DNA of 64,000 nucleotides from Imbricaverruca yamaguchii (lineage: Eukaryota > Arthropoda > Thecostraca > Neoverrucidae): contig JAOTOL010001285.1 of the NCBI GenBank assembly GCA_034440575.1, positions 356,001 through 420,000 on the forward strand, in the 5' to 3' direction. Under the pieces are notes generated by a model. That model was not told the DNA's origin. It did no database searches and saw nothing but the letters and a program-made list of their open reading frames with translations. The translations under genes and the position numbers were made by a program. This document shows positions 29,980 to 63,370 of this stretch, one piece after another; position 1 is the stretch's first letter; every line of letters starts with the position of its first letter.

Positions 29980-31967
29980 CAGCATCTTACAGAGATGATA
30001 CAGAACCTGTTGTCGTCGCTGATGCTCGACCACTTTTGACACCATCCTCTTACAAAGATGAGTTGCTGACCCTTCGCCCCCTCTGACACCACCGTATTAC
30101 AGAAACAATGCAGGGTCTACTGTCCTCGCTGACCCTTGCCCTCTTTTGACACCATCCTCTTACAAATATGAGTTGCTGACCCTTCGCCCCTTCTGACACC
30201 ACCTTCCTACAGGGACGATACAGGGCTTAACATCGCTACTTACACTTGACCCTTCTGACACCACCGCCCTGGGGCGGGGATGGCCGAGTGGTTAAGGTGT
30301 CGGGCTATGGGTACCGAAGGTCCCGGGTTCGACTCTAGCGCCACTCCGGGAATTTCCCAATCCCGCGGCCCACCGGCGAAACAGTGTGGGCGGCGCCATT
30401 AGCCGTGAATGTGCATAAAGTGTGTCGTGAACCAACCAATAAATAAGCAAACAGACACCACCGTCCTACAGGGACGATGCAGGGCCTGCTGTCGCTGCTG
30501 ACCTTTGAACCCTTCTGACACCACCGTCTTACAGGGACGATACAGGGTCTAATATCGCTACTGAAACGTGACCCTTCTGACACCACCGTCCTACAGGGAC
30601 GATGCAGGGCCTAATATCGCTACTGACACTTGACCCTTCCGACACCACCGTCCTACAGGGACGATGCAGGGTCTAATATCGCTACTGACACTTGACCCTT
30701 CTGACACCAATGTCCTACAGAAACGATGCAGGGTCTAATATCGCTACTGACACTTGACCCTTCTGACACCAATGTCCTACAGAAACGATGCAGGGTCTAA
30801 TATCGCTACTGACACGTGACCCTTCCGACACCACTGTCCTACAGGGACGATGCAGGGTCTACTGTGGCCTCTGTCACCACCAACCCTTGACCCTTCCGAC
30901 ACCACCGTCCTACAGGGACGATGCAGGGCCTGCTGTCACCACCAACCCTTGACCCTTCCGACACCACTGTCCTACAGGGACGATGCAGGGCCTGCTGTCC
31001 AACCCCTTGACCCTTCCGACACCACCGTCCTACAGGGACGATGCTCTGTCCACCCTTGACCCTTCCGACACCACTGTCCTACAGGGACGATGCAGGGCCT
31101 GCTGTCACCACCAACCCTTGACCCTTCCGACACCACTGTCCTACAGGGACGATGCAGGGCCTGCTGTCACCACCAACCCTTGACCCTTCTGACACCACCG
31201 TCCTACAGGGACGATGCAGGGCCTGCTGTCACCACCAACCCTTGACCCTTCCGACACCACCGTCCTACAGGGACGATGCAGGGCCTGCTGTCACCACCAA
31301 CCCTTGACCCTTCCGACACCACCGTCCTACAGGGACGATGCAGGGCCTGCTGTCACCACCAACCCTTGACCCTTCTGACACCACCGTCCTACAGGGACGA
31401 TACAGGGTCTAATATCGCTACTGACACGTGACCCTTCTGACATTACCGTCCTACAGGGACGATGCAGGGCCTGCTGTCACCACCAACCCTTGACCCCTTC
31501 CGACACCACCGTCCTACAGGGACGATGCAGGGCCTGCTGTCACCACCAACCCTTGACCCTTCCTGACACCACCGTCCTACAGGGACGATGCAGGGCCTGC
31601 TGTCACCACCAACCCTTGACCCTTCTGACACCACCGTCCTACAGGGACGATGCAGGGCCCTGTCAATCTGTCACCACCAACCCTTGACCCCTTCTGACAC
31701 CACCGTCCTACAGGGACGATGCAGGGCCTGCTGTCACCACCAACCCTTGACCCTTCCGACACCACCGTCCTACAGGGACGATGCAGGGCCTGCTGTCACC
31801 ACCAACCCTTGACCCTTCCGACACCACCGTCCTACAGGGACGATGCAGGGCCCACTTTCCCCACCAAACCTTTACCCTTCCTAAACCTACCGTCCTACAG
31901 GGACGATGCAGGGCCTGCTGTCACCACCAACCCTTGACCCTTCCGACACCACCGTCCTACAGGGACG
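29980..31967. repeat. 62-bp array that repeats the innexin B start-codon region
   Basis: Roughly 25-30 units of ACAGGGACGATGCAGGGCCT plus GCTGTCACCACCAACCC and TTGACCCTTCCGACACCACC. Units near the gene are almost identical and exactly 62 bp (ATG at 31906, then 31968); those to the left are diverged. The last unit is the real exon 1 start. A SINE A interrupts the array. Confidence 0.95.
30271..30453 (+). mobile_element. SINE A copy inserted in the 62-bp array
   Basis: Complete head, body and AATAAATAAGCAAACA tail. A 14-bp array segment GACACCACCGYCCT is duplicated on both sides (30257-30270 and 30454-30467). Confidence 0.92.
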
Positions 31968-32231
31968 ATGCAGGGCCTACTGTCGCCGCTGGCGTTCCAC
32001 GCCCACTTGTTCTCGGCGCGCGCCAAGCCGTGCGGGGACGGCCTGCTGTTCCGCCTGCACTACCGCGTCACCTTCGTGCTGCTGATGGCCTGCTGTCTGC
32101 TGGTCACCGCCACGCAGTACATCGGCGCGCCCATCTCCTGCCTCAGCGAGGAGAACCTGCCGCAGAACGTCGTCAACACCTACTGCTACATCGCCAGCAC
32201 CTTCACGCTGCCGTCCACCACCGACCTCAGG
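31968..32231 (+). CDS. Innexin B exon 1 (start codon, TM1, first loop)
   Basis: 88 codons ending CTCAGG before a GTGCGA donor (phase 0). The ATG at 31968 aligns residue for residue with the innexin A start. The preceding CCTACAG could be either a 3' splice site or plain 5' leader. The sequence from there through MQGLLSP is the last copy of the 62-bp array upstream. Confidence 0.9.
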
Positions 32232-62800: not shown

Positions 62801-62987
62801 GGCTCACCTCCACCTGGACGAAGTCGATGGCCACCGTGAACAGGCCCTGGTTGGTCTGGTTGTACTTGGCCTTCAGGCGCGCCTGCAGGCGGCCCTCGAC
62901 GTTGCTGATGAGGGTCGCTTGTGACGTCACCGCGAGGATTCCCAGCGCCGCGAACACCAGGAACACGAGCAGCAGGCAGAAGAAGTG
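53827..62987 (-). CDS. Tetraspanin, 3' part of gene (five exons, TM3 to C-terminus)
   Basis: Exons 62987-62808, 61172-61046, 60208-60108, 54990-54907 and 53889-53827 join in frame to 184 residues. Tetraspanins are four-pass membrane organisers with a disulphide-bonded large extracellular loop. Seen in order: TM3 (HFFCLLLVFLVFAALGILAV); the loop helix; CCG in HKCCGVHGFNDYF; CC in VPNTCC; a single C in QLCQSPDP; GC in GCMLRIQKWF, giving the standard six loop cysteines; TM4 continuing through IFGMLFTICLCR; and the tail NVDDDQPA. The GT-AG junction phases agree. TM1 and TM2 exons are not seen; on this strand they should lie to the right, probably outside the window. Two of the five acceptors adjoin tandem arrays that repeat them. 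The subfamily is not assignable. Confidence 0.9.
53956..54123 (-). mobile_element. SINE B copy in tetraspanin last intron
   Basis: Minus-strand B family. TTCCTCGAGG flanks at 53946-53955 and 54124-54133. Confidence 0.87.
54134..54906. other. Tetraspanin last intron, mostly nothing
   Basis: Two ~40-bp copies containing GGGGAGACC and TTGCCAGTAATGCGCAC at 54799-54885, just downstream of the exon 54990-54907 donor. Confidence 0.55.
54907..54990 (-). CDS. Tetraspanin exon: sixth loop cysteine and TM4
   Basis: 28 codons, acceptor TTCCAG and donor GTAAGC, phase 0 both ends. It encodes GCMLRIQKWFELETTIILCG and ALGVAGLL, the family's GC-helix-TM4 arrangement. Two ~40-bp direct repeats lie downstream of the donor at about 54799-54885. 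Confidence 0.9.
54991..55964. other. Tetraspanin intron, low-complexity then nothing recognised
   Basis: 55050-55245 has long G and A runs suggestive of poor consensus. No exon or element found. Confidence 0.45.
55965..56004. repeat. 40-bp near-perfect palindrome
   Basis: CTATCTAGTAGAGACCTAAG with its near-exact reverse complement, essentially no loop. A further partial copy of ATAGAGACTTAGGTCT follows. Confidence 0.9.
56085..56290. repeat. ~31-bp tandem repeat
   Basis: Six units of TGATGTACCTAATTGGGAAT plus ACCGGAGGATTG; alternating GGAGGATT and GAGGCGTT versions give a two-unit higher order. Confidence 0.92.
56545..57060. repeat. ~35-bp minisatellite
   Basis: About 13 diverged units of GACAACCTTGCGCATGTTCG plus GCAGACAATGTCATT in a tetraspanin intron. 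Confidence 0.92.
57061..57837. other. Intronic sequence, nothing recognised
   Basis: No element or exon seen. Confidence 0.5.
57838..58520. repeat. ~85-bp tandem repeat interrupted by a SINE
   Basis: About six to seven units containing CAGTGTGCCCACTGTGTAGA, TGGTTTGTGCCGCGTGG and GGAGCGCTTCTGGTGCCTCA. A SINE B copy is inserted at 58022-58194. Confidence 0.85.
58022..58194 (-). mobile_element. SINE B copy
   Basis: Minus strand; GAGTGCCGATGGTC duplications at 58008-58021 and 58195-58208, inside the ~85-bp array. Confidence 0.9.
58648..58829 (+). mobile_element. SINE A copy, complete
   Basis: Head GATGGCCGAGTGGTTAAGGT, B box GGTTCGACTCTAG, body, tail AATAAACAAACAAA. CGTTCTGCCG duplications at 58635-58644 and about 58830-58839. 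Confidence 0.92.
59033..59092. repeat. (TA)n microsatellite
   Basis: About 28 TA units, with shorter TA tracts at 59098-59140. Confidence 0.96.
59141..60107. other. Intronic sequence, nothing recognised
   Basis: Tetraspanin intron, ordinary sequence. Confidence 0.5.
60108..60208 (-). CDS. Tetraspanin exon: fifth loop cysteine
   Basis: Found by looking for the missing loop cysteine. It starts after GGCGACAG with CG/TTCCTCCAC and ends GAAACG before GTACGT, two bases plus 33 codons, encoding FLHPRPKNSQLCQSPDP to PFRYET. Phases agree with both neighbours. An alternative acceptor 10 bp upstream would break the frame. A ~63-bp array carrying versions of this acceptor begins right at its upstream edge. 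Confidence 0.75.
60209..60590. repeat. ~63-bp array at the acceptor of the third tetraspanin exon
   Basis: About six units with AAGAACATCTGTCGTCTCCT, GTCGGGAGAAAGCG and GAGAACTTTGTGATTCACC. The minus-strand CTCTCGACAGGAGGCGACAG acceptor region recurs in diverged form in each unit. One unit is split by GTTGGTTGGTTGGTTAC. Confidence 0.88.
60591..61045. other. Intronic sequence, nothing recognised
   Basis: Tetraspanin intron between the third and second exons of the visible part. Confidence 0.5.
61046..61172 (-). CDS. Tetraspanin exon: CCG motif of the large loop
   Basis: 42 codons plus one base, acceptor TCTCCCAG and donor GTGAGT. It begins HKCCGVHGFNDYFNSKW and ends VPNTCCVLKKRK. The CCG and the PxxCC-type motifs identify the family. 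Confidence 0.92.
61173..61771. other. Intronic sequence, nothing recognised
   Basis: Tetraspanin intron, ordinary sequence. Confidence 0.5.
61772..62205. repeat. (AGT/AGC)n trinucleotide array
   Basis: About 430 bp of GTA and GCA triplets in blocks; the purest block is at 62000-62127. Confidence 0.97.
62206..62807. other. Intronic sequence with G runs
   Basis: CAATACGGCAGTACTAC-like short repeats at 62325-62450, G runs near 62610 and 62655. No gene. Confidence 0.5.
62808..62987 (-). CDS. Tetraspanin exon: TM3 and start of large loop
   Basis: 60 codons from a GTTCGCAG acceptor to GTGGAG before GTGAGC (phase 0 exit). It encodes HFFCLLLVFLVFAALGILAV then NVEGRLQARLKAKYNQTNQG and AIDFVQVE. The acceptor plus ~20 codons recur four more times upstream (63026-63370), so the biologically used acceptor could be one of several copies. 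Confidence 0.88.
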
Positions 62988-63370
62988 CTGCGAACAGCGG
63001 AGCACGTGATCCGTGACGTCACGGCGAGGATTCCCAGCGCCGCGAACACCAGGAACACGAGCAGCAGGCAGAAGAAGTGCTGCGAACAGCGGAGCACGTG
63101 ATCCGTGACGTCACGGCGAGGATTCCCAGCGCCGCGAACACCAGGAACACGAGCAGCAGACAGAAGAAGTGCTGCGAACAGCGGAGCACGTGATCCGTGA
63201 CGTCACGGCGAGGATTCCCAGCGCCGCGAACACCAAGGAACACGAGCAGCAGGCAGAAGAAGTGCTGCGAACAGCGGAGCACGTGATCCGTGACGTCACG
63301 GCGAGGATTCCCAGCGCCGCGAACACCAGGAACACGAGCAGCAAGCAGAAGTGCTGCGAACAGCGCACAT
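62934..63370. repeat. 92-bp array that repeats the tetraspanin TM3 exon start
   Basis: GAGGATTCCCAGCGCCG recurs at 62934, 63026, 63118, 63210 and 63303. Each unit carries the GTTCGCAG acceptor and codons for HFFCLLLVFLVFAALGIL on the minus strand. The copy at 62934 is the functional exon; the last is truncated at about 63365. Confidence 0.96.

Follow-up and report, generated by a model that had tools for sequence, protein, structure and literature searches.

Tandem arrays that copy exon edges in innexin and tetraspanin genes of the barnacle Imbricaverruca yamaguchii fit the description of lancelet mirages

How do tandem arrays come to carry copies of the exon edge beside which they lie? The question is raised by a 64,000-nucleotide stretch of the barnacle Imbricaverruca yamaguchii (positions 356,001 to 420,000, forward strand, of contig JAOTOL010001285.1 in the 767-Mb assembly GCA_034440575.1), here called the window, whose scale is used for all coordinates except those marked L033 or L037. 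It contains two innexin genes, A and B, and a partial tetraspanin gene, in which the original prediction, made from the sequence alone, had described minisatellites that end at splice sites, a start codon and a stop codon and copy these signals, and had proposed a recurrent process that duplicates exon boundaries. The arrays that copy exon edges are real, and the observation as first described is partly confirmed. With a probability of roughly 0.6, they would be explained by ordinary minisatellite birth across exon edges together with selection keeping the exon-joined copy, a directed process being unneeded.

Six exons of innexin B were assembled into an open 370-residue model, which showed 78% identity to an Amphibalanus amphitrite innexin and matched the Pfam Innexin family (E = 3.7e-103). 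Innexin A, with seven exons, was mapped by tblastn with P0001 to P0005, its edges being taken from the sequence, and the partial tetraspanin showed 81% identity to Pollicipes pollicipes and 73% to Amphibalanus, values that mark the source as a barnacle and argue against either of these two species. Copies were searched with 24-bp cores centred on exon edges, allowing up to five errors, within 1.6 kb; this search superseded an initial fuzzy search, which overlooked copies. Extra copies were found in the neighbouring DNA at 6 of the 34 exon edges of the three genes, namely four acceptors, the innexin B start (probably an acceptor too) and, weakly, one stop. Two further tetraspanin exons bring the set to 38 edges (window plus L037, a stretch whose positions 1968-2205 correspond to 65968-66205 on the window scale), with copies at 5/19 5' edges and 1/19 3' edges, the latter being the stop. 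None of the 16 donors of this set was copied at this stringency, nor were any of the innexin A acceptors.

The innexin B start has 24 extra copies of a 62-bp unit, as foreseen. These units include a candidate acceptor of an intron in the 5' untranslated region (UTR), with CCTACAG located five bases upstream of the ATG, as well as the start codon and the first coding bases. Because 62-bp units each bearing an ATG would make a poor leader, the array is probably better read as an acceptor array of a 5'UTR intron, with its edge at 31963. A tRNA-like repeat, by eye likely a short interspersed nuclear element, was seen at 30284-30452 in the region of this array and recurs at 58645-58830.

The exon 4 acceptor of innexin B, also expected to be copied, has nine extra copies of a 79-bp unit, six of them full decoys and three remnants farther upstream. 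The unit is composed of 25 bp of intron and 54 bp of exon 4, and the last of the seven units is joined to the exon. Two of the six decoys carry small deletions in their exon-derived part (1 nt in one, 1 nt plus 2 nt in the other), while the joined copy reads intact, in keeping with its predicted role as the functional one. Ten extra copies were found for the exon 5 acceptor, but the acceptor-bearing unit is 50-51 bp long; the 36-bp form named at first is 14 bp shorter and lacks the acceptor AG, the absent 14 bp being flanked by direct repeats in the sequence. The 36-bp unit described at the innexin B stop was copied weakly (five extra copies, each with 3-5 errors in 24 bases) and includes only the final 7 bp of the coding sequence (CDS), being otherwise mainly 3'UTR.

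Both tetraspanin acceptors for which copying had been claimed were copied, 62987 with four extra copies of a 92-bp unit and 60218 with three extra copies of a 64-bp unit, these with 3-5 errors; by reading phase, the latter acceptor may be 60208. The 92-bp array has 67 bp of exon inside, and its decoys match residues 94-118 of P0119 from Pollicipes, two of them at 92%. The AG is retained in the exon 4 and 62987 decoys. Next to the preceding tetraspanin exon (L037:1968-2205), a 113-bp segment is tandemly duplicated (x2) just upstream, and the extra copy has no acceptor AG.

Table 1. Arrays, genes and exons of the window (a slash marks the acceptor or candidate acceptor site; TRF, Tandem Repeats Finder)
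Feature	Position	Strand	Basis or remark
62-bp array, innexin B exon 1	30454..31991	+	TRF and copy search; units hold CCTACAG/GGACGATGCAGGGCC
79-bp acceptor array, innexin B exon 4	37479..38011	+	six decoys and functional copy; TRF and copy search
36/50-51-bp acceptor array, innexin B exon 5	38693..39806	+	TRF and copy search
36-bp array, innexin B stop	41567..41795	+	TRF and copy search
92-bp acceptor array, tetraspanin	62921..63365	-	four decoys and functional copy; TRF and copy search
64-bp array, degenerate copies of acceptor of exon at 60218	60315..60582	-	TRF and copy search
Innexin B exon 1 (CDS)	31968..32231	+	gene model; matches P0001
Innexin B exon 2	34045..34224	+	gene model; acceptor ambiguous, four candidate AGs
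Innexin B exon 3	36110..36370	+	gene model
Innexin B exon 4	37958..38115	+	functional acceptor CTTCAG/GTCTTC
Innexin B exon 5	39774..39908	+	gene model and homology
Innexin B exon 6	41459..41573	+	gene model; TGA stop 41571-41573
Tetraspanin exon (residues 94-153 of P0119)	62808..62987	-	functional acceptor CTGTTCGCAG/CACTTC
Tetraspanin exon	60108..60218	-	acceptor 60218, or 60208 by phase
Last two tetraspanin exons (54990-54907 and 53889-53827)	53827..54990	-	homology
Innexin A	1503..20211	-	exons 20211-19945, 15728-15552, 7908-7739, 6550-6460, 4532-4375, 3239-3105, 1614-1503
23-bp and 11-bp arrays, innexin B exon 2 donor	34242..35387	+	begin 18 bp past donor; donor not copied at stringency used
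35-bp array, innexin A exon 5 donor	4213..4371	-	4 bp past donor; one distant donor copy at far end
18-bp array, innexin A exon 3 donor	7541..7725	-	14 bp past donor; donor not copied
22-bp array, innexin A stop	1333..1496	-	7 bp past stop; stop not copied
41-bp x2 repeat, tetraspanin donor 54907	54807-54887	-	20 bp past donor; donor not copied

Conserved innexin or tetraspanin residues are encoded in the exon-derived part of the units, which shows that copying ran from exon to intron. The reverse order, in which exon edges were captured from older intron arrays, is scarcely credible: no supporting point was found, those exon-derived residues are conserved in homologues, and the position of the exon 4 intron is common to innexin A and B. 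Nor are the arrays one repeat family, judging by their units, which had been described as mutually unrelated and were no more alike than shuffled sequences: in pairwise comparisons of the six units, 15/15 pairs fell below the shuffled maximum, one pair being just over the shuffled 95% point. Genome searches, which skip very common words, placed 25/25 matches of the 62-bp exon 1 unit and 17/17 matches of the exon 5 unit at their own loci, so that neither of the two units searched genome-wide, out of six, was found at many sites as a dispersed mobile repeat would be.

Minisatellites are abundant in the genome as sampled. Arrays with a period of at least 9 bp were detected with TRF and merged, in the window and in a genome sample of 20 fixed-grid 10-kb stretches (200 kb). 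The window holds 43 merged arrays covering 20.5% of its length, and 17.3% of the sample is minisatellite, with arrays in 19/20 stretches. Their frequency, counting each array once, climbs almost four-fold from 2.4% at a guanine-cytosine (GC) content of 0.40-0.50 to about 9% at 0.60 or above; the mean GC at the exon edges of the window and L037 is 0.594. An assembly artefact, in which the stacking of reads or haplotypes had created spurious tandem copies, is conceivable for arrays known here from one assembly alone, but very unlikely in view of this wide occurrence on the grid and of the substitutions and indels that separate the copies to varying degree.

Under ordinary minisatellite birth, arrays would arise frequently and chiefly in GC-rich DNA, where exon edges lie, as the samples indicate, and a founding unit would occasionally straddle an exon edge. 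Repeat growth would pile copies up on the intron side, and purifying selection would retain the copy continuous with the exon, with which the intact joined copy and the small deletions in the decoys are in agreement. Splicing would use the acceptor closest to the downstream donor, a choice in line with exon definition, and the decoys would therefore be tolerated and drift.

The main rival is a recurrent process favouring exon edges, where a sharp step in base composition, transcription-linked breaks or template switching would start tandem duplication; we regard it as possible, though on balance unlikely. The two were compared by a collapsed null in which each array is counted once, and by its GC-matched form. 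With GC matching, copied edges in the window and L037 numbered 6/38 against 2.67 expected (p 0.047), a marginal value for a window chosen post hoc. At other innexin loci they numbered 2/26 against 1.44 (p 0.43), in a small sample from a single gene family with edges picked by splice-site score. A process targeting exon boundaries, as first proposed, is not upheld by these values. Edges scoring below 4.3, acceptors of high-scoring segment pairs (HSPs) beginning at the first residues of the query and donors of HSPs reaching its end were left out of the count at the other loci, as were the mapped exons of L035 and L036, which overlap L008 and L007. The stretches L001 to L008 had a 1.5-kb flank only, so the 1.6-kb copy search was shortened there. 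Both copied edges at these loci have a single weak extra copy each rather than an array, and the remaining edges have none.

Several results weigh against ordinary minisatellite birth or in favour of a process drawn to exon edges. The excess of copied edges in the window and L037 remains about two-fold after GC matching, at the p of 0.047 given above, and the pooled set gives 8/64 against 4.11 (p 0.051). Without GC matching the excess is stronger, both in the window (6/34 against 1.3-1.9, p 0.002-0.01) and in the pooled set (8/60 against 2.3-3.3, p 0.002-0.017); the other innexin loci alone give 2/26 against 1.0-1.4 (p 0.27-0.42). Array ends, compared with random placements that were not GC-matched, cluster at the edges of the window and L037: 8/38 edges have an end within 25 bp against 1.94 expected (0/3000 placements as high), 10/38 within 50 bp against 3.54, and 13/38 within 75 bp against 4.83 (p 0.001). 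In the window, repeats occupy the +30 offset of 10/19 3' edges and the -30 to -200 offsets of 6-7/19 5' edges. The small size, single family and score-picked edges of the other innexin set also count on this side, as does the same structure in several lancelet genes, as reported in the portions available of two papers (PMC3087553; PMC3902484).

That arrays end at gene signals, as the original prediction stated, thus holds in the window, which was itself picked for that feature, but there was no firm sign of it in the small sample from elsewhere: at the other innexin loci array ends lie within 25 bp of 2/26 edges against 0.64 (p 0.13), and within 75 bp of 2/26 against 1.58 (p 0.48). Up to 100 bp outside these edges repeats are at or under background, being found at 5/45 acceptor-side and 2/33 donor-side positions, compared with 18-22% in the grid; at offset +30 they were seen at 2/11 3' edges. 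Moreover, a symmetric boundary mechanism should also hit donors, of which 0/16 were copied in the window and L037 and 1/11, once and weakly, in the other innexin loci. A broader form of the same idea seems doubtful: in barnacles, independently of lancelets, a process acting across the whole genome would seed arrays by preference at exon edges, acceptors above all, and the decoys stacked in introns would be raw material from which introns could grow and alternative acceptors or new introns could arise.

Two other yardsticks, both of which had first hinted at no enrichment, were discarded, array rotation against edges (5/34 edges inside arrays vs 7.0; 10 within 30 bp vs 8.4) and copied edges against random positions (6/34 vs 157/600 in window noncoding DNA, 132/600 in the grid and 47/300 in innexin loci), because a random site may fall in any of the n copies of a unit and an exon edge only in the founding one. 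Coding candidates of the grid, of which 1/20 scanned passed its Pfam cut-off, were also dropped (21 edges), since most were without a donor and a Pfam match. Five of these edges had copies, four had an array end within 25 bp and eight within 75 bp, values that would favour enrichment if the candidates were exons.

It is improbable that the decoy arrays were retained for a function, as alternative acceptors or to strengthen acceptor recognition. Three of nine exon 5 decoys are open and in frame, with exon starts at 39723, 39672 and 39507 giving extensions of 51, 102 and 267 nt, and alternative innexin B isoforms from this region (39507-39773) are possible on this reading. A 4-kb array of 35-bp units beside another innexin acceptor (L033:1600-5652; G000:C1350:1992001-2002000) ends about a dozen nucleotides before the AG and repeats TACTAAC, which we take to be a branch-point-like consensus motif, 112 times; such an array could also be read as functional. 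On the other hand, use of any of the nine exon 4 decoys would yield a stop (eight) or a frame shift (one), the 36-bp exon 5 units offer no AG, and the innexin A acceptors do without copies.

The original prediction knew of no named class of repeats with this behaviour, but one exists. Lancelet mirages, described in Adh3, the globins BflGb6 and BflGb9 and troponin C, are minisatellite-like tandem duplications of an intron-exon boundary, according to the available portions of the reports; their copies sit beside the authentic part of the gene, and many, not all, retain splice signals (PMC3087553; PMC3902484). Units of 10-72 bp at Adh3 and of 150-160 bp in the globins are given (PMC3087553), and citing papers refer to Canestro 2002 as the original account. 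The barnacle arrays fit this description at the sequence level: their units are tandem, measure 36 to 92 bp and span the boundary, copying the splice site and part of the exon at 37958, 39774 and 62987, more weakly at 60218 and probably at 31963, and the splice AG is kept in many, not all, units. Normal mRNA splicing despite the decoys belongs to the lancelet type, and would be expected here from the open innexin B model and the homologous proteins. So does haplotype-length or somatic instability; the barnacle arrays come from a single assembly. These arrays differ from the lancelet ones in their host, which is not a cephalochordate, in the lack of copied donors in the window and L037 at the stringency used, in contrast to the donor-side BflGb9, and in including a start/acceptor and, weakly, a stop.

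Internal tandem repeats with units of about 30 bp on average also occur in human primate-specific paralogues, some at exon-intron boundaries as in the barnacle; in the part of that report available, they lie in segmental duplicates and are proposed to form new introns, whereas the barnacle arrays lie in introns of ordinary genes (PMC2812944). Segments carrying splice signals are likewise duplicated when introns are gained from AG/GT proto-splice sites (Rogers 1989, cited in the available part of PMC3087553), but the barnacle arrays are within existing introns and no new intron was seen; for the exon 4 array, the one checked, the intron position is not new, being shared with the paralogue innexin A. 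In the literature found, the accessible portions describe mirages in lancelets only (PMC3087553; PMC3902484), and titles and abstract openings disclosed no account of such arrays in barnacles or other crustaceans, which is no proof of absence. What is new here is the phylum, not the kind of array. Mirages in a barnacle suggest that they originate wherever minisatellite birth is heavy. They also offer natural tests of how splicing settles on a single acceptor when up to 25 near-identical candidates are present, and of whether introns grow through the duplication of exon edges.

Other arrays adjoin exon edges without copying them (Table 1). Donor-side and stop-side versions had been claimed for innexin A, but its signals were not copied at the stringency used; the single distant copy of the exon 5 donor has 8/28 bases changed.

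For both Amphibalanus homologues, P0002 and P0120, the longest contig is given as 249343 bases, a hint that the tetraspanin and innexin A are neighbours there as well. Two inverted repeats with short loops were noticed by eye, at 33235-33345 in innexin B intron 1 and at 43330-43415 downstream of innexin B.

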